A program made the position numbers and the translations under genes. The notes beneath the pieces were generated by a model. The model had not been told where the DNA came from and did not search any database. It saw only the letters and a list, made by a program, of their open reading frames with translations. This document shows, in pieces, positions 39,928-47,742 of a stretch of 64,000 nt of DNA. The stretch covers positions 1,529,001 through 1,593,000 of the forward strand of contig NZ_JAUTAJ010000004.1 in the NCBI RefSeq assembly GCF_030818485.1, written 5' to 3'. This stretch comes from Pseudoroseomonas cervicalis (GTDB lineage: Bacteria > Pseudomonadota > Alphaproteobacteria > Acetobacterales > Acetobacteraceae). Numbering within the stretch: position 1 is the stretch's first letter; each line of letters starts with the position of its first letter.

Positions 39928-40411
39928 TTCTTCAAGCCCGCCATGCGCATGGCCGGCGAAAGGCCGGAAGCAGTTGCCCGAGGCTGATGGATCTCCGTCG
40001 CGCCGCCTATGCCTAGGGGGCGCGGGGCGCGCCCCTCCCGCAGCGGCGCGAGCGGCAATGATGCGGAGCTGGCCGCCGCGCTGGGGGGCGGTTAGGAGCG
40101 GACGAAGCGGCTCCAGCGTCGGAGGGGGGCTGACCGGGCGAAGCCCAGGCCAGCGGCGCCGTGAGCGCGGGACCCGCCGCGCAAGGCGGCCAGCCGGCGC
40201 TTCGCCGAGGCCGGCTGCAGCACGCCCCGCTGGGCCACCGGAGCCTGTCCGCGGCCGAGCGCCCTGCCCGCGACAAACCAGCAAAAGCTGGCGCGGATCG
40301 CCCCCGCGCGCATGCCGCGGCACCAGAGGGACAGGGCGGATGGCTGGCCGAAACACGGGGTCGCCCATTCAGGCCGCCAGATGCCTGATCAGTCGGGAGA
40401 TTTTGGAAAGA
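39928..40411. other. Gene-free chromosomal stretch left of the prophage
   Basis: About 480 GC-rich bases between the MarR operator and the putative attachment site. Open frames exist on both strands but none has a ribosome site, credible composition or a recognisable motif. A small hairpin, CCAGC-AAAA-GCTGG, lies at 40278-40291. The normal 3' flank of the tRNA-Glu gene should be here if the attachment reading is right. Confidence 0.4.
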
Positions 40412-40427
40412 TGGCGTCCCCAACGGG
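40412..40427 (-). other. Putative prophage attachment site (tRNA-Glu 3' end fragment)
   Basis: The minus strand reads CCCGTTGGGGACGCCA. This is T-stem 3' strand (CCCGT), acceptor 3' strand (TGGGGAC), discriminator G and CCA, as in bacterial tRNA-Glu genes that start GTCCCC. The match stops exactly where the T-loop should begin, so it is a 3' fragment and not a gene. Everything to the left is ordinary chromosome, everything to the right phage-like. The full tRNA-Glu should lie at the far end of the element. Confidence 0.6.
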
Positions 40428-40626
40428 CTCAATATTGCCAGGCGAAATCAGCACGTTACTTGGTCAAACCCTCAAAAACCCCCTGCCATAAATCAAGGAC
40501 TTAGACGGGTTTTGTCAAACTCCCCCGGCTCGTTCGACGCGACGCTCGGGGGCAGGCTGATCATCGCGTTTGTTCTTTTTTTGTTCGCACGCTAGGCGTG
40601 GGGCTGACCGCAGAGGAGCCCCCACC
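40428..40626. other. Left end of the prophage: repeats and promoter region
   Basis: GTCAAAC occurs at 40463-40469 and 40514-40520 in similar contexts and could be integrase arm sites. A GC hairpin (40522-40552, CCCCCG/CGGGGG) lies between these and the SOS box. The stretch is less GC-rich than the chromosome to its left. Confidence 0.35.
40572..40586 (+). promoter_or_regulatory. LexA (SOS) box
   Basis: GTTC, seven T, GTTC: the exact alphaproteobacterial SOS operator GTTC-N7-GTTC. It lies 40 bases before the ATG at 40627, in the promoter position of a three-gene phage operon, so that operon is probably switched on by DNA damage. Confidence 0.65.
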
Positions 40627-40968
40627 ATGCGCGCCAATCGTCGCCCTGCATCCCCTTCCCCTGGCGACGCCGCCCTCCGGCGAATGGCCGATTTGGTCGG
40701 CAGGCAAGCCACACCCCAGCGGCTCCGTGTGGCCGTGGAAGACCTCGTCTCCGAATGGCGTGCCGAGACATCGCTCGCTGATCGCGCGAGCATCCGGGAG
40801 CGCCTCGAGGACATGGCCCAGCAGCTCGCCGAGGGGATCGCGGAGGCGCGGCAGGCATTGGACGAGACGAGCCTCAGCCAAGCCACATTGCGCCGCCACG
40901 GGGAGGCATCCCTGGCGGCCTTGAGCGCCGCCCATGACGCGCTCCATGCAGCGCAGGCCACCCTATGA
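40627..40968 (+). CDS. Hypothetical prophage protein, helical
   Basis: 113 residues from the ATG at 40627, with GAGGAG nine bases upstream. It has an N-terminal basic stretch and then almost continuous charged helix (VSEWRAETSLADRASIRERL, AQQLAEGIAEARQAL), probably a coiled coil. No family is recognised. It is first in an operon under a LexA box and overlaps the next start by ATGA. Confidence 0.7.
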   Translation: MRANRRPASPSPGDAALRRMADLVGRQATPQRLRVAVEDLVSEWRAETSLADRASIRERLEDMAQQLAEGIAEARQALDETSLSQATLRRHGEASLAALSAAHDALHAAQATL

Positions 40969-41303
40969 CGGCCCTCCCAGAAGAGGGCACCTTTGCCTCG
41001 GACGCGGCGTCAGGGATCTACTACGTGGTCCGGTGCCGGTCCTGCCGCAGGCAGTCCCCCGTATCCGCGCTTTCCGTCGTCCGAGCCGGCCACGGAGACA
41101 GGCGGGTTGTCGGGAGCCAGTCCCGCTGGCGCTGCAAGGCCTGCGGGAAGCGGGGCGTAGACCTAACTGTCTCGGGCCAGTGGACCGGGCCGTGGGATGG
41201 CCGACCGGCTGACTGGGCCGAGACCGTGGAGGAGCGCATGCTGGGCCGCGATAGGCCCCTCTCCCTGGCCTCGGAGGTTGGCGATGGCCCACAACCTCAG
41301 TGA
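40965..41303 (+). CDS. Hypothetical zinc-ribbon protein
   Basis: 112 residues, ATGA-coupled to the preceding gene. Two CxxC knuckles (VRCRSCRR about residue 24, WRCKACGKRG about 57) form a likely zinc ribbon, suggesting nucleic-acid or protein binding. No specific family is recognised. Confidence 0.65.
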   Translation: MTALPEEGTFASDAASGIYYVVRCRSCRRQSPVSALSVVRAGHGDRRVVGSQSRWRCKACGKRGVDLTVSGQWTGPWDGRPADWAETVEERMLGRDRPLSLASEVGDGPQPQ

Positions 41304-41628
41304 GATTCGTCGGCGCGCGAGGCTGATGGAGGAGCCGCTGGAGATGTGGCGGCACTGCCTGGTCTACATGCGGTGTGCGGCAAAGCACCCGGCGTGCCGC
41401 ATGTGGGTGTCCGACCTGTTGGACCGGCCGGATCCGCTCCGCAAGGTTGGGGATCTACTGACCCGCCTGACCTGCAAGGAGTGCAATCAGCCGCCCCATG
41501 CGGTCGGCTTTCGCGCCGGCCCTGACAGCCCCCATTGGCAGGAGGTCATCATGCCTGACGATTGGGGACGCGGCTACCACGAGCCGTCGACTGTCCGCGT
41601 GGAGTGGTGGCGAGACATGAAGCTTTAA
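41284..41628 (+). CDS. Hypothetical small Cys-containing protein
   Basis: 114 residues from the ATG at 41284, overlapping the previous gene by 20 bases. Cysteines occur in MRCAAKHPACRMW and LTCKECNQPPHAVG, again a possible zinc site. The C-terminus is Trp-rich (PSTVRVEWWRDMKL). It is the third gene of the SOS-box operon and is convergent with the TIGR02391-like gene 13 bases away. Confidence 0.65.
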   Translation: MAHNLSEIRRRARLMEEPLEMWRHCLVYMRCAAKHPACRMWVSDLLDRPDPLRKVGDLLTRLTCKECNQPPHAVGFRAGPDSPHWQEVIMPDDWGRGYHEPSTVRVEWWRDMKL

Positions 41629-41641
41629 TCGCGCGGCGGGG

Positions 41642-42443
41642 CTAGACCCGCGGCGGCATCCGCGCCTGGTCCAGGCGCCTATGGATCAACGACGCCATGG
41701 AGAGCAGGTCCTCAGCGTCCTCTCGGGTCATCGGCCAGTGGACGCGCGGCGCATGGGCCGTGGGGTTCCGGAACATGCCGACAACGCCGCGGACCAAGTT
41801 CGCGAAACCCCGCTGCTCGCTCCTTTCGTCCTCGGTCTGGAGGCTGTTGATGGCCAGCATGGGCGGGGCACCTCCGAGGGCGCGGTCCACTAGTAAGGAC
41901 CCGTCGTCGGTGAGCCCGGTCCGTGACCGCATCTTGTCGGCGACGGACTTCACCGCCTCCAGGACCGCATGGAAATGGTCGTCGACCAACAGCTCGGCGC
42001 GGGCAGAACGCTAGGACGTCGGGATGGACGCCGCGTCGCACCAGATCCTCACGCAGCTCGCGGGCGCGCCGCTCGGCCTCGGGGATTGTTGTGGCGGCCT
42101 CGGCTGTCCAAAGTTCTCCTTTGGCGTCCACTTCCAACCCTGCGAACGCCAAGGCCCTGTTGACCTTGACGCGAAGCGGCTCAAAGCGGCCCGGCGCCTT
42201 GAGGTAGCGCTCCGGCTTCATGGCTTGCCTTAGGAGCTTCAGGACCGCTCCGCGATCCTGGCGGTTGTTCTGGCTCGCGACGAGACCGTTAAGGATGCGG
42301 TGGCGCTTCGTCATGGAAGGGGTCGGGTCGGGAATCGTCGCCACCCGCAGCAGGTGGCCGATCTCCGTGCCGGTGAGGCCGTCCTCGGTGTCACCGAGCG
42401 CCGCGGCGATAGCCTCAAGCTGGCTCTGGGTAAAGGTTGCCAC
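41642..42443 (-). pseudogene. TIGR02391-type (Ymh-like) HEPN protein, interrupted by one-base frameshift
   Basis: The first frame runs from the GTG at 42443 through AEAATTIPEAERRARELRED to HPDVLAFC and then goes out of frame. The second frame continues at RAELLVDDHFHAVLEAVKSV and ends at 41642. Dropping one C from a CCC run (plus-strand 42001-42003) joins them as LAFCRAELLVDDHFHAV, the expected TIGR02391 layout. The C-terminal domain has DGSLLVDRALGG, MLAINSLQTE and MFRNPTAHAPR, whose RNxxAH matches the HEPN catalytic motif. Such proteins are suspected RNases in abortive infection. It starts 2 bases after an Abi-like gene stops, so the two are one operon. Confidence 0.72.
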
Positions 42444-42445
42444 GG

Positions 42446-43312
42446 CTACAGGAACGGATTGGCCGTGCGGCTCATGCGCTCGTGCTCCGCCATCAGATAC
42501 GTGACGTAGCTGCGGATGAGGTTGCAGTAGAGCTGGGCATCACTTTTTGGCAGTTCGACGACGTGCTTGATGTCGGCGCCGTGACGCACGCCTCCACCGG
42601 TAGGGGATGACAAGAAGCCGTAGAGCTTGCTGATCCAGTCTATGACCTGCTCCAGCATCTGGCCTTTGTGGTGCCGCTTCAGTTCCCTTGCGATGGTGAT
42701 GAAGTACTTCTCCTGCACCGTCTTCCCGGTGCCCGTCTCCATCCCACGGAAGGCCGTGGAGACGGTCTCCAGCAGCCACAGGATCTCCGACACAGCCTGC
42801 CGATGGCGCCCCTCCAGCAGCAAGCGCTCCGACTCCCGGAGCGCATTCTGGATGATTTCTTGGGCTTGCTCGTCGAGGGATGGTTGCCGCACCGGCACGG
42901 CAACGGGAGTCATCGTGCCGGAGAATACTAGGTCGGGCGGCCGGATCTCGTAGCCGGTCGCATTCTCACCGAGCACACGGTTGATCAGGGCGAGGTTCGG
43001 CACGCCCAAGTTGGGGTTTTCCGCCTGCAGGCTCTGGGAGGCGGTCCAGAACGCCACGATGAAAAGGGGTGCGTTCACGGCGGCGCTGCGCATGGCATCG
43101 CTGAGGTCGGATTCCGCCCAGCTTGTATTGGAACTGTACGCATAGGGAATTCCCGCTGCGCCAGCAAAGTGGGACTTGAAGTGCTCCAGGATCTCCTGCC
43201 GGCTGCCCTGGAAGGCGATCCGGGAGATGAACTCGGAGAAGCTGCTGATAACACCCTGGGGAATCGGCTCTCCGGGAGCCTCAAAACGCCAGCTGGATGG
43301 GAAGTTCAGCAT
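42446..43312 (-). CDS. Putative abortive-infection-like protein
   Basis: 288 residues from the ATG at 43312 (LNFPSSWRFEAPG); the frame is open to 43411. The N-terminal ~180 residues show no motif I know. The C-terminal half is helical with EGRHRQAVSEILWLLETVST and WISKLYGFLSSPTGGGVRHG, a pattern like the C-terminal domain of Abi proteins with the conserved Gly-Gly-x-Arg-His. It precedes and is coupled to a HEPN-type gene. A defence or superinfection-exclusion role is inference from this pairing and its place in a prophage arm. Confidence 0.5.
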   Translation of the reverse strand: MLNFPSSWRFEAPGEPIPQGVISSFSEFISRIAFQGSRQEILEHFKSHFAGAAGIPYAYSSNTSWAESDLSDAMRSAAVNAPLFIVAFWTASQSLQAENPNLGVPNLALINRVLGENATGYEIRPPDLVFSGTMTPVAVPVRQPSLDEQAQEIIQNALRESERLLLEGRHRQAVSEILWLLETVSTAFRGMETGTGKTVQEKYFITIARELKRHHKGQMLEQVIDWISKLYGFLSSPTGGGVRHGADIKHVVELPKSDAQLYCNLIRSYVTYLMAEHERMSRTANPFL

Positions 43313-43630
43313 ACCTGCCCCACACGTACGAGGCCGCCATTCGGCCGTCACAGTTTCCCATGATACAGCATCCGCAACGCGGCACCTATCGGGCCGTGCG
43401 GCCTCCGTCACCTGGAATAAAGTAACAGCGTTAGCTCTTCTACTCCTTCGCCAACGTTACCGAGTAACCAAGCGCCACCACGCCTATAGGCACAACAGCC
43501 GCACGAAGGTCAGCTGCGTGCCAGCCGCAGAAACAACGGTGGGCTGCCTCTTTGCCCAAATGCTGGGGTGGCTTTGCCAGTCGCCAACACCGCCCTACCA
43601 TCGCGCGATCTCATCTCACTCGGGGTAAAT
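43313..43630. other. Divergent intergenic region in the prophage left arm
   Basis: 318 bases of lower GC content than the chromosome. GTTAC-CGA-GTAAC at 43456-43468 is a perfect 5-bp dyad, with a related GTAAC-AGC-GTTAG about 30 bases to its left. They could be operators for the leftward Abi-like operon or the rightward nuclease-like gene. No further gene is supported. Confidence 0.4.
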
Positions 43631-44218
43631 ATGGCAGACAGCATCGCAACGGTTGTGAACTGGTACGGGCCTTACACTGGCTCCAGTGAGGCCGAGGTGC
43701 TGGCCACGGCAAAGGGCGCCGCGAAGGAGGGATGGTCGAAAGGGCTTTACGCGGCTATCGGCTCTGGGGAGACCCTTCAGCGCGGCGCAAGGCGCCTGCT
43801 CTATATGGGCGTGGGAAACCCGCTGCACTCGCGGCTCATCCCGCAGCACCACCAGCTGAGCAAACTTTCCCTCCGGCAGATCTGGCTCGGCGAGATCGGC
43901 GTCCCGGGAATTCCGGGCAAGCGGCCGAAAAAGATCGACACCCATCTCGATATGGTCGAGTGGGCATCTGCCTTTTTCCTCGAGCTACCATTCAACAAAA
44001 AGAAGCGCCAGAATCCGCCCGATACCTCTTGCGTGGTCGTCAACCGGTGGTGGGAGACCGATTTCGAGACCTCGTCGGCCAAGCCGCTGAGGTCATGGCC
44101 GGACATCATCGAGTATGACTTCGACAAGGAGCTCGGGAACCTGGTTTGGTTCGCTCCCACGCGCCGCATCAAGCCTATCCCTGTGCACAAGGTCCGGCGC
44201 CCGAGAGCAACCATGTAG
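43631..44218 (+). CDS. Putative GIY-YIG-like nuclease
   Basis: 195 residues from the ATG at 43631. GLYAAIG (about 36-42) and LLYMGVGNPLHSRLIPQHHQ (about 56-75) resemble the GIY...YIG core with the following Arg, then EIGVPGIPGK, DMVEWASAFFLELPFN (candidate metal-binding Glu) and NRWW. The catalytic motif order is right, but the degree of divergence leaves this tentative. It is cargo gene 1 in a series of plus-strand genes, each followed by a convergent copy of a staphylococcal-nuclease-like gene. Confidence 0.5.
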   Translation: MADSIATVVNWYGPYTGSSEAEVLATAKGAAKEGWSKGLYAAIGSGETLQRGARRLLYMGVGNPLHSRLIPQHHQLSKLSLRQIWLGEIGVPGIPGKRPKKIDTHLDMVEWASAFFLELPFNKKKRQNPPDTSCVVVNRWWETDFETSSAKPLRSWPDIIEYDFDKELGNLVWFAPTRRIKPIPVHKVRRPRATM

Positions 44219-44264
44219 GCAGTCGACGACTACTGACCCCGCATCTCTCTTCGCCACACCCAAG

Positions 44265-44580
44265 GCGGCACCCGCTCGGCCTCTGGCAGCCGCCACAGCC
44301 CTCGTCTTCCCTGCCGGGCCTCGGCCTCCAGCACCAGGAGATCAGGGTCGCGGCCGTAGCGCCGATAGACCCAGGCCATGGCCCTGCCGCGCCAGCTCGA
44401 CGATGACATCTAGCGAGCCGATCCAGACCCGTCCCGCCTCCTACCGTAGCGATCGATGTCCGCCACATCGACGCGAGCGTCGCGCCTGAAGACCATGGCC
44501 GCCAGCGCCTGGCGAGCGTGAGAACCCCAGGGCTGGCACGCACGCCTAGGGAGCGTCGATGTCGGCTACGCGGATGCGTT
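44265..44580 (-). pseudogene. Decayed 3' copy of the staphylococcal-nuclease-like gene (copy A)
   Basis: About 315 bases align almost end to end with 45743-46058 of the intact nuclease gene downstream. Shared runs include GGCAGCCGCCACAGCCC, GTCGCGGC and CATCGACGCG, with scattered substitutions and small indels. It corresponds to the C-terminal two-thirds; the signal peptide and DGDT part are missing and the frame is broken. It lies tail to tail with the GIY-YIG-like gene. Confidence 0.75.
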
Positions 44581-44693
44581 CCTAAATCTCTTCAGCCGCC
44601 GAAAAAACAGGAGTAAGCAGGATCATGGCAATCAATTGCCAGGCTTTGAAGTACGCCATCCCGCTTCTCTATCTTTGTCCTACAGGAGATTAT

Positions 44694-45497
44694 ATGCCAG
44701 GAGATCCATTTACCGCCGAAGAAGACATAGCTTTTTACACGCTGTTCAGAAAAGAACTTGATAAAATCAATTACACGAGAAGTGCCGCCGCATATAATTG
44801 GCACGATAATCCTGACAAAACCATCGAATTCACAAATAAATTGATGGTCCGCTTTTTTATGTATATGGAACTAATAGAAACTATGTCTTCCGACATTTCA
44901 AATGTAATCAATGAACTCGCTACCTGCATAAGGCACCTAAAAGCTTGGAATTTAGTCATCCGAAATTTAAACCAAAGAGATCTTCATCATATAGTAGTTG
45001 AATTTATTGATCATGAAGCGAAATACGCTTTAACGCTTCCTTATTCGATAAAAGCAAAATTTATATTCGCCACTTCTTTATTATCTCATCAGGCCAACGC
45101 CGCAAAAATTCCAGGCTGGGTAGATAAACTGGAACCTGACGAGAAGATCGTACAGGAGGTTATGGACCGCGTAGCGAAACCGTGGAAAGGATATAAGAAA
45201 TTCAAATTACGCTTAGAACTTATTGGTAATAATGAATATAGGCAGAAGACAAATGACTTCAGAAATTCTTTAGTTCACAGATTTCAACAAGATATATGCA
45301 TTGGATTCACAACAATATTAGAAAGAGACGAAAAAAGCGATCCTCCCTCTTATTCAATAAAACAACTCCCTCCACTCGAGTTAAGCGATATAGTAATAAT
45401 TCTGGAAGAAGAGCACGAAAAAACCCACAATGCACTAGAACTTTTCAAGATTTTGGTTAACGAACAAATATCAAATTTCAAGTTACACCAAAAATAA
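44694..45497 (+). CDS. AT-rich HEPN-like protein, candidate moron
   Basis: 267 residues from the ATG at 44694, chosen for AGGAG six bases upstream; an ATG at 44625 also has a ribosome-site-like purine run. Base composition is far lower in GC than its neighbours, with AAA/ATA/AAT codons throughout, a sign of recent transfer. The protein is almost all helix with no membrane segment. DFRNSLVHRFQQ (about 188-199) contains RNxxxH, the HEPN ribonuclease motif. HEPN proteins are common in toxin and abortive-infection systems; activity and trigger are unknown. Confidence 0.6.
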   Translation: MPGDPFTAEEDIAFYTLFRKELDKINYTRSAAAYNWHDNPDKTIEFTNKLMVRFFMYMELIETMSSDISNVINELATCIRHLKAWNLVIRNLNQRDLHHIVVEFIDHEAKYALTLPYSIKAKFIFATSLLSHQANAAKIPGWVDKLEPDEKIVQEVMDRVAKPWKGYKKFKLRLELIGNNEYRQKTNDFRNSLVHRFQQDICIGFTTILERDEKSDPPSYSIKQLPPLELSDIVIILEEEHEKTHNALELFKILVNEQISNFKLHQK

Positions 45498-45718
45498 TTC
45501 ACTATTAACCCAATTTATAAAATCTCTGGGGTTTTTTAGCATGCTGCGCGGCCGGCGTTGACCTGCAGAACTTCCAGATGGCCAACTACCGCTAGCAGCC
45601 TCTGCCCAAGATTAATACCCGGGTAACTTCTCGAAATCGCATTGGCGGGGAATAGGCCCTTTGGGTCAGCTTCTTAGGATGCCTAAACCCGCATAAGAGG
45701 TGTCGGGCCCGACGGACC

Positions 45719-46201
45719 TTAGCGGTTCTGCCTCCGCCATTCCCATGGCGGCACTCGCTCAATCTCCGGCAGCCGCCACAGCCCCCGCCTTCCCTTCCGC
45801 GCCTCGACCTCCAGCGCTAGGAGGGCAGGGTCGCGGCTGTAGCGCCGGTAGACCCAGGCGTGGCCCTGCCGCACCAGCTCGGCGCTGACATCCAGCGGGC
45901 CAATCCACACTCGCCCCACCGTCCGGCCGTAGCGATCTAGATCCACCACATCGACGCGGGCGTCGCGCCTGAAGGCCATAGCAGCCAGCGCCTGCCGGGC
46001 GCGGGTGCCCCAGGGCTGTCGTGCCTCAGGCGCGTCGATCTCGGCTAGGCGGATGCGCACCCGCTCTTGGGCCGGCGTCAGCAGCGTGAGGGTGTCGCCA
46101 TCATGGACGCCGACCACTTGGCCACGCAGCTCGGCAGCAGAACCAACGCCAATGACCATGGCAAAAGAAAGAAGATATGTAAGACTTACAGCCAAGGCCA
46201 T
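45719..46201 (-). CDS. Secreted staphylococcal-nuclease-like (thermonuclease) protein, intact copy B
   Basis: 160 residues from the ATG at 46201. The N-terminal signal (ALAVSLTYLLSFAMVIGVG) ends near SAAEL. The SNase core keeps all key residues: VHDGDTLTLL (calcium Asp pair), RIRLAEIDAPE (Arg, Asp, Glu) and DRYGRTVGRVW (Arg). It should cut DNA or RNA in the periplasm or outside. Two decayed copies of its 3' part lie at 44265-44580 and 47082-47196, in the same orientation. A periplasmic nuclease in a prophage could act on incoming phage DNA. Confidence 0.85.
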   Translation of the reverse strand: MALAVSLTYLLSFAMVIGVGSAAELRGQVVGVHDGDTLTLLTPAQERVRIRLAEIDAPEARQPWGTRARQALAAMAFRRDARVDVVDLDRYGRTVGRVWIGPLDVSAELVRQGHAWVYRRYSRDPALLALEVEARKGRRGLWRLPEIERVPPWEWRRQNR

Positions 46202-46313
46202 ACAGCCAATAGACCGCCCAAATCTAAGAAAAAATTTATGGCCGCAAACATTTCTTGCGCTGCTTCCCCACAGTTGCCTAGATGGATCTCGTTTCAAGAC
46301 AGGGAGAAGTTTT

Positions 46314-47015
46314 GTGGCCAAGCGATCCAAGGCAAAGTCCCCCTTAAATGATCTTTCTTTTGAAATTTTAGAATTGCTGAGGAAGGAATTTACATCAAGC
46401 GACAGAAATACCTCCGATTTACTCAACGGATATGTTGGCCCAAAATTAGACAACTTGGCTGAAGAATTTATAAAAAATAGATCATTTTCTCGAGTTGACT
46501 ATGATCTTGCCATAAAAAGTCTAGAAGATCATGACTTTGTAGACACAGGACCCAAAGTTTTCTATGAAAACGATCCGGATTCAAGCGCATTTATATTGGC
46601 TATGTATAGTAAAAGAGAGTATATTTATTTAAAGGAAGACGGCTATAGGGTATCCTCTGAGAGGAAGGCGAACGCGTTGCATCAAGAGTCCCATCAAAGT
46701 GTTACTATAAATAATAGTAGTTTCTATCAATCGCCTGTAGGGGTTGGTAGAGAAGTAAAACAGCAACTTCATTTCGATATAAAAAATAAATCTGACATTA
46801 TTAATTATTTGTCTGAAATACTTATTCAAGAAAATATTGTAATTACTGAAGAAGTTCAAAATGACCTGAATGCGATGGTAGAGAAGGCAAAAGCTGGCGA
46901 CATGGCTGGCGCTAAGCCGCTATATCGGAAGTTATTTGAGAAAATTAGCGGCCCCGGCAAAGAACTCGCCATGGGAGTTCTTACTGAAATAGTTAAGAGC
47001 TCGCTAGGCTTTTGA
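46314..47015 (+). CDS. AT-rich winged-helix-like protein, candidate moron
   Basis: 233 residues from the GTG at 46314, preceded by AGGGAGAAG. Composition is strongly AT-rich. Residues ~10-110 look like a winged helix (DLSFEILELLRKEF, DYDLAIKSLEDHDFV, REYIYLKEDGYRVS). A short Asn-rich beta segment follows (VTINNSSFYQSPVGVG), then a helical C-terminus ending GVLTEIVKSSLGF, which could be amphipathic. The sensor-linker-effector look recalls defence proteins, but no named family is recognised. It is divergent from nuclease copy B and convergent with remnant C. Confidence 0.55.
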   Translation: MAKRSKAKSPLNDLSFEILELLRKEFTSSDRNTSDLLNGYVGPKLDNLAEEFIKNRSFSRVDYDLAIKSLEDHDFVDTGPKVFYENDPDSSAFILAMYSKREYIYLKEDGYRVSSERKANALHQESHQSVTINNSSFYQSPVGVGREVKQQLHFDIKNKSDIINYLSEILIQENIVITEEVQNDLNAMVEKAKAGDMAGAKPLYRKLFEKISGPGKELAMGVLTEIVKSSLGF

Positions 47016-47081
47016 TCGCTGCCAGTGTCCCAGCAAAGCAGACGGCCCAGTCGGCCATAGCCCTCTAACTGCGGGGCGGGG

Positions 47082-47196
47082 CTTAGCGGCCTCGCCGTTC
47101 TATTTGCCATATCCCAGCCGGCACCTACAGAGCCCCCGGTAGCCGTCACGGTCTTCCCGTTCCTTGCCAAGCCTCGACCTCCAGCTTCACGCCGCA
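47082..47196 (-). pseudogene. Short decayed remnant of the nuclease gene (copy C)
   Basis: About 115 bases align with the 3' end of the intact nuclease gene and its flank (45717-45815), sharing CTTAGCGG, CCGGCAC, AGCCGTCAC-like and GCCTCGACCTCCAGC runs. Nothing of the upstream part of the gene remains. It follows the second AT-rich cargo gene in the same relation as copies A and B follow theirs. Confidence 0.6.
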
Positions 47197-47229
47197 CCAA
47201 GCTGGCCTACTGAAGCCGGCGCCAAAGGC

Positions 47230-47742
47230 TTAAGCGAGCGGATACTCCCGCACCGCCGCTGCCCAGGAGGTGCCCCAGCGCTCCCGGTGCGGCTTGCCCG
47301 GGCGCCACAGCCGGTCGGCATAGCAGGCCCGGGCTCCCGCCTCCGTCTCGGGGATGGCCTGGGGATCGGACAGCAGCAGCAGCCGCGCCAGGCCATAGGC
47401 CAGCAGGTCGTGGCCCTCGATCGCGCGCCAGATGGCGGCCGCCTCCGGCCGCACGCTGGCCGCCTGGCAGAGCGCCACGCCGCGGCTGCGGATGCCCTGG
47501 GAGACGGCCGAGGCGGTCACCACCCGGATCATCCCGCCCGTCTGCTCACCCTGCCACCAGCTCCGCGCCGGTCCGGGCGCGCCGCTGGCCAGCACCTGAT
47601 AGCGGTGCACCAGGTCGCTCTCCTGGATGGCGATGGCCAGCAGCATGCGGCGCGCCGCGATGCTGCTGCTCAGGCCGGCCACCTGCTCCGCCCAGGCCGC
47701 GCCAGGGGTGATGACGCGCTGGACGAATTCCTGGGGGGTCAT
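47230..47742 (-). CDS. Putative phage endolysin, lysozyme-like
   Basis: 170 residues from the ATG at 47742, in an ATGA overlap with the preceding small gene. The pattern LLAIAIQESDLVHRYQVL, GPARSWWQGEQTGGMIRVV and WRPGKPHRERWGTSW is shared by a group of uncharacterised phage proteins found in lysis cassettes. The Glu in IQES is a candidate catalytic acid as in lysozyme and transglycosylase folds. It is last in the late operon, behind a holin-like gene. Confidence 0.6.
   Translation of the reverse strand: MTPQEFVQRVITPGAAWAEQVAGLSSSIAARRMLLAIAIQESDLVHRYQVLASGAPGPARSWWQGEQTGGMIRVVTASAVSQGIRSRGVALCQAASVRPEAAAIWRAIEGHDLLAYGLARLLLLSDPQAIPETEAGARACYADRLWRPGKPHRERWGTSWAAAVREYPLA

Follow-up and report, generated by a model that had tools for sequence, protein, structure and literature searches.

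The stretch of Pseudoroseomonas cervicalis DNA analysed here (the window: 64,000 nucleotides, G000:C4:1529001-1593000, where G labels a genome, C a contig and, below, L a locus) carries at one end of a complete prophage an accessory slot, in which three cargo genes alternate with three copies of a nuclease gene of the SNase family. The slot turns over among related prophages, and in the two longer nuclease copies a break in base composition coincides with the junction between the signal-peptide segment and the mature part of the protein. Our preferred reading is that an SNase gene was resident in the slot and that cargo joined it stepwise within SNase genes, copies being left as scars around the cargo; we hold it tentatively and would stop a little short of calling it probable. 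In kind, the slot is an ordinary prophage accessory hotspot. That sister nuclease copies are broken at the same internal point is unusual, and points to a specific and testable mechanism. The features on which this reading rests are listed here, with G+C content (GC) given as a fraction.

40428..47229, no strand: prophage accessory slot, from attL (the left attachment site) to the last late gene
43631..44218, plus strand: cargo1, GC 0.61
44230..44659, minus strand: SNase copy A, decayed; homology to B at 44249-44578, signal segment 44591-44659 with GC 0.48
44694..45497, plus strand: cargo2, GC 0.36, with a HEPN-like R-x4-H motif and rare relatives
45719..46201, minus strand: SNase copy B, intact (PF00565); signal segment 46130-46201 with GC 0.47, mature part 0.71
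46314..47015, plus strand: cargo3, GC 0.38, phrog_28570, function unknown
47099..47185, minus strand: SNase copy C, a 3'-end remnant of about 87 nucleotides (nt), placed by alignment to A and B

Strands and order are those of a preliminary description of this stretch, in which each plus-strand cargo gene is followed by a minus-strand nuclease copy. That description also took copy B to be intact, and it matches PF00565 with an E-value of 3.3e-24. Residues R51, E59 and R93 are invariant across 19 aligned SNase sequences, and we take them to correspond to the catalytic residues of Staphylococcus nuclease. The N-terminus of SNase B reads by eye like a signal peptide, and export and calcium-dependent nuclease activity are predicted. 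Copy A is decayed, as had been described, but is longer than the 44265-44580 assigned to it: its own start lies near 44659, a signal-peptide-like stretch runs to 44591 and the copy ends near 44230, with an internal loss after the signal segment and in-frame stops. Copy C is indeed a remnant, smaller than the 47082-47196 first given. The three copies align far beyond chance, their scores exceeding all shuffle maxima. The A-B local alignment (44249-44578) scores 356, where 300 dinucleotide shuffles gave 30 at most, with 83-86% identity within four longer aligned pieces, and copy C scores 45 against B and 49 against A where the shuffle maximum is 32, which rules out a chance match for C. GC is 0.70 in A, 0.67 in B and 0.64 in C. 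A and cargo2 stand head to head with their starts about 35 nt apart, and B and cargo3 likewise at 112 nt.

A and B are mutual nearest relatives, with about 81-83% nucleotide identity; the second-best match of B, among 62 other rows, is at 75%. In a 64-row nucleotide tree A joins B with a support of 93 in the Shimodaira-Hasegawa-like approximate likelihood-ratio test (SH-aLRT), on branches of 0.20 and 0.073, as expected if A lost constraint.

Sliding GC shows both AT-rich tracts reaching beyond the cargo into the signal segment of the SNase, where they end. A simple two-rate model puts the change point of copy A at 44579 (44559-44623), with the signal segment ending at 44591, and that of copy B at 46151 (46128-46165), with the segment ending at 46130. 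The breaks fall within the A and B genes, so each AT-rich tract comprises a cargo gene together with the 5' end of a nuclease gene. Against the signal-segment GC of 0.47 in B and 0.48 in A, values of 0.58-0.79 were obtained for 27 other SNases (30 were examined, three of them without the motif). The drop in GC from mature part to signal segment is 0.22 in B, and the next largest is 0.17 among 157 loci rows, a redundant set that includes four rows of B itself; A is outside this set, and its separately measured drop is also 0.22.

The mature parts of A and B are 83% identical, whereas the identity of their signal segments is 0.389, with a shuffle mean of 0.34 and 10% of shuffles reaching 0.389. 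Among other SNase pairs, which are not independent of one another, the 12 with a mature identity of 0.80-0.85 have signal identities of 0.467-0.693, and all 19 with a mature identity of 0.77-0.87 lie above 0.389 (lowest 0.403). Both signal segments look like signal peptides and both end in SAAE, which favours an origin from SNase genes over chance insertion. Composition and the unrelated signal segments together indicate putative junctions inside the nuclease gene.

We can envisage the following course of events. An exported SNase gene, of a kind common on plasmids and mobile loci of the genus, may have settled in the slot of a tRNA-Glu prophage. The slot would have grown stepwise, at least two AT-rich cargo genes arriving each with an SNase 5' end that encodes the signal peptide, and these incoming 5' ends would have joined the resident GC-rich SNase near the signal-peptide/mature junction. 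The outcome would be cargo between direct SNase copies, the older of which decayed. The joins may have been SNase-SNase crossovers; an incoming element that bears an SNase could, for instance, have recombined by a single crossover, with deletion afterwards. Judging from the families represented, the cargo may protect the lysogen against other phages, and SNase B may cut incoming or released DNA outside the cytoplasm.

Turnover of the slot was followed through the last late gene, which occurs at 17 places in 13 of 397 family genomes. Seven of these places reach at least 55% identity (the window, G000:C2, G348, G374 and three in G107), and at five of the seven an SNase or a remnant of one lies beyond the late end. 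The window has three pieces, G000:C2 one intact copy, G107:C52 a piece from residue 99 on, G107:C121 a piece from residue 60 on near a contig end, and G107:C7 an SNase reduced to its first 23 residues. At the last of these (L095 4340-4408), the match to the intact SNase of G107:C65 stops at the signal/mature junction, and an ExoD gene comes next. No SNase was found in the 2.1 kb before the contig end in G374, nor in the DNA fetched at the ten more distant late-end places, part of it cut by contig ends. The late-end DNA of the window and G348 is 89% identical up to 47237, no more than 8 bases from where the last gene ends; elsewhere the phages match in some parts only and are therefore mosaic.

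The late-end gene is conserved on one side of the slot, and on the other lie a weakly conserved small gene and attL. We compared nine prophage loci (the seven late-end places, G107:C65 and G202:C75) using in-house gene calls, and found no cargo gene common to their slots; the SNase, the gene at 41284-41628 and, weakly, the small end gene were shared. The proposal that the site exchanges cargo is partly supported, its variable cargo being borne out. The preliminary description had also foreseen many unrelated cargo genes bounded by SNase copies in related prophages, and this is not what we see: each of the six sibling slots, two of which run off a contig end, has a single copy, a single remnant or no SNase at all. 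In another prophage-like region of the window's own genome (G000:C2 431697-434542), the same late-end gene (70%) is followed by a methyltransferase-family gene, an SNase and a 41284-type gene convergent with the SNase. For genes of the G348 slot, the labels 'response regulator' and 'glycosyltransferase' had no Pfam support and were dropped.

Among named organisms, the closest SNase relatives found belong to Pseudoroseomonas and Roseomonas. At the DNA level, the 3.7-kb region is matched in 14 of the 17 genomes of the genus, its own included; apart from its own full match, 27 of the 29 match rows fall inside the SNase and the other two inside cargo3. Protein searches found the SNase in 16 of the 17 genus genomes at E<=1e-4, including a distinct relative at about 34-42%, and in 22 of 249 family genomes at E<=1e-15. 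Its settings are plasmids, chromosomal-looking loci and prophages. It is present in 1121 plasmid records at E<=1e-30, of which 1025 are predicted to be conjugative, and an excerpt of PMC13055273 in PubMed Central (PMC) places a thermonuclease gene beside traG. An alignment search of viral contigs gave 126 relatives, and a single-sequence search of viral contigs gave no match. At viral loci L195-L218, the SNase comes after a pair of minus-strand genes and a single plus-strand gene in 15 of 34 examined, and the gene order there resembles an early region, not a late end. Because the SNase is carried widely as a passenger on plasmids and at other loci too, the role of anchor that had been ascribed to it is not shown.

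Elsewhere, loci with more than one SNase piece are rare. A second piece was present at two of 64 loci (some fetched twice), on the opposite strand, and two same-strand pieces at three of 23 genus loci (G398:C4, G386:C7 and G293:C338). At G293:C338 (L182 7243-8495), an opposite-strand GNAT gene lies between SNase 5' and 3' remnants, in the geometry of A, cargo2 and B; two neighbouring genes look by eye like an McrBC pair. At G398:C4 (L178), about 7.9 kb with secretion-type genes (ABC, HlyD and OmpA-family) separates the two pieces. The flanks are the same at G374:C1 (L175; 89% and 83%), but this locus has one SNase and an RTX-repeat gene, and among genus genomes the right flank matches at length only between these two. 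At G386:C7, 12.4 kb separates the pieces, on a contig of 60 kb. The presence of cargo between same-strand pieces at G398 and G293 speaks for joining within SNase genes; the two loci are not shown to be related to the window prophage. Same-strand pieces within 13 kb, a cut chosen after inspection of the data, occur in four of 17 genomes against 0.10 expected in a rough simulation; if only 10% of the genome is open to SNase, 0.91 are expected (P 0.008). The piece counts per genome were entered by hand; they take in copy C and the piece at G107:C7 but leave out the 34-42% relative. That the SNase acts throughout the genus as a portable homology arm across plasmids, islands and prophages, incoming SNase-bearing DNA crossing over inside the gene, often near the signal-peptide end, so that cargo comes to lie between copies on any replicon and decayed copies are scars of exchange, would be a wider claim, and an unlikely one.

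Several results weigh against stepwise joining within SNase genes. We found no parental sequence or crossover product, and most relatives are without the array. Searches for a donor of the A or B signal segment found none, the best scores lying within the shuffled range, and none of the genes tested, which covered part of the early genes only, was recognised as a phage recombinase. A second SNase piece is present in none of the six sibling slots (two of them truncated at contig ends) and in none of 80 viral loci (the best 80 of 126), the latter ruling out the array as a usual phage feature. The SH-aLRT support of the A-B join falls under the 95 mark, and FastTree on 65 rows, with B in twice, gives the same join with a support of 0.69. 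With 5% of the genome open to SNase, 1.71 genomes with clustered pieces are expected (P 0.07). The G374 and G398 cargoes may belong to a single older island, which would allow for loss instead of exchange there. Two further results also speak for plain accretion by illegitimate or phage-phage recombination, with the SNase as a frequent passenger that was gained repeatedly and had no mechanistic role. The G348 slot differs from that of the window, and no SNase was found in it; and a cargo3 relative (51% amino acid identity) lies in a chromosomal setting in G399:C108 with no SNase within the 16 kb fetched. The breadth of SNase carriage, from the genus genomes to plasmid records and viral contigs, is what plain accretion would predict, and we consider it a realistic possibility if on the doubtful side; it leaves unexplained that A and B are nearest relatives and that both AT-rich tracts end at the SNase signal-peptide junction.

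The sister relationship of A and B could also reflect local duplication, one SNase having doubled within the prophage and AT-rich genes having inserted later upstream of each copy. The two copies lie on the same strand, about 1.48 kb from start to start, as such an event might leave them, but no A-B homology was found outside the gene, the signal segments are no more alike than shuffles against 83% in the mature parts, and upstream insertion alone would not give two signal peptides ending in SAAE. We regard local duplication as improbable. More improbable still is that the composition break marks no junction, the signal segments of this lineage having drifted to AT beside AT-rich genes. Signal segments do evolve fast, their identity falling quickly with divergence; yet none of the 27 other measured SNases has a signal GC below 0.58, in both copies the AT tract runs on unbroken from the cargo, and in each the change point coincides with the junction. 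Stepwise joining within SNase genes remains the reading that we prefer.

The remaining features of the slot and its borders are as follows.

40409..40427, no strand: attL, 19 bp, repeated at the tRNA-Glu 3' end
40657..40968, plus strand: small end gene near attL, with weak relatives beyond the late end in G348 and G202
41284..41628, plus strand: small gene, convergent with the SNase at G000:C2, G107:C65 and G293:C69
41642..42443, minus strand: PD-Lambda-3_B-like defence gene in two frames, 41990-42443 and 41645-41989
42446..43411, minus strand: gene without family, directly upstream of the PD-Lambda-3_B-like gene on the same strand
47230..47742, minus strand: last late gene, phrog_3108, function unknown

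The genome is of 4.89 Mb, and window GC is 70.5%. The 19-bp repeat at attL recurs at about 1611724 of G000:C4 (82724 in the extended sequence), where it overlaps the 3' end of tRNA-Glu, and a tyrosine integrase adjoins the tRNA-Glu gene at this far copy. It is the longest repeat detected; the runner-up, at another site, has 18 bp, so the att assignment rests on the location at the tRNA end. The repeat pair therefore delimits a prophage of about 42.3 kb seated in the tRNA-Glu gene, and the array-bearing region is one end of it. The tRNA-Glu core of the att site had no match in the G348 and G000:C2 stretches.

Genes were called with a purpose-written simple scorer and no standard caller. The relatives of the small end gene in G348 and G202 are at 35% (E 2e-4) and 30% (E 3e-5) amino acid identity. 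The two frames of the defence gene, queried separately and unjoined, match PD-Lambda-3_B of PADLOC (E 8.8e-29 and 1.1e-37) as well as PF09509; the frame changes near 41990, through a broken gene or a sequence error. In the excerpt of PMC13190303, PD-lambda-3 serves as an abortive-infection control. The profile searches run gave no family for the gene at 42446-43411. The last late gene may, from its position, act in lysis. The genes in this position in two other prophages match Glyco_hydro_19 weakly (E 2.1e-4, short of the threshold for that family) and phage lysozyme (E 2.2e-30), and a search of viral contigs with the last late gene of the window returned only four distant loci.

As to the cargo, cargo1 had no match in any family or sequence search tried. 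Cargo2 has two relatives besides itself in the protein database and six plasmid records, and is present in two of 387 family genomes including its own, the other at 29%. Its R-x4-H motif is invariant in the three aligned members. It has no Pfam or NCBIfam match, only weak ones to phrog_20879 (E 0.0077) and a PADLOC CARF model (E 0.0032), and its structure model is unusable at a predicted local distance difference test score (pLDDT) of 44. Cargo3 matches phrog_28570 (E 3e-40), has 12 relatives besides itself and gave a model with pLDDT 68; it is in one of 249 family genomes drawn (its own) and in two of 17 genus genomes, with no match in INPHARED phages. Alignment searches of viral contigs found neither cargo2 nor cargo3. 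In G399:C108 (L189 8357-9435), the cargo3 relative (GC 0.41) and a small companion gene form an AT-rich island of about 1 kb, whose neighbours read by eye as pur genes.

On how defence genes are swapped in prophage hotspots, Rousset et al. (2022, PMC9122126), in the excerpt, could only speculate, invoking cohesive ends together with homologous recombination. Should the homology come from a common nuclease gene, its decayed copies would be traces of earlier exchanges and could guide searches for cargo on plasmids, on islands and in prophages; if not, the locus is an ordinary, well-filled accessory slot. SNase copies bracketing cargo are undescribed in the titles and abstract starts of the open-licence PMC papers that literature searches listed, a library outside which most subscription papers lie.

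Like the P2-like and P4-like anti-phage hotspots, as far as the excerpt of Rousset et al. (2022) describes them, the slot is small, has a high turnover, lies beside a conserved phage gene, and carries a defence-like gene (PD-Lambda-3_B-like) together with unknowns. Unlike those hotspots, it is bordered by the late end and attL rather than by a cos-adjacent site, and a nuclease gene recurs between its cargoes. The same excerpt mentions the moron genes of temperate phages, which the window cargo resembles in being foreign in composition and opposite in strand to the late genes; unlike morons, it has no excess of promoters or terminators (at 43400-47300, four promoter-like sequences against 3.6 expected and three terminator-like against 5.0). 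Cargo2 shares the R-x4-H motif of HEPN RNases with Tha and other prophage HEPN defence genes, as these appear in the excerpt of PMC11087260, but has no convincing family match. The SNase copies themselves are of the same family and size as the exported SNase-family nucleases of conjugative plasmids (PF00565, annotated as thermonuclease family), the nearest named plasmid relatives being on Roseomonas plasmids at 62-69%; unlike those, the window copies lie on a prophage, decaying, between cargo genes.

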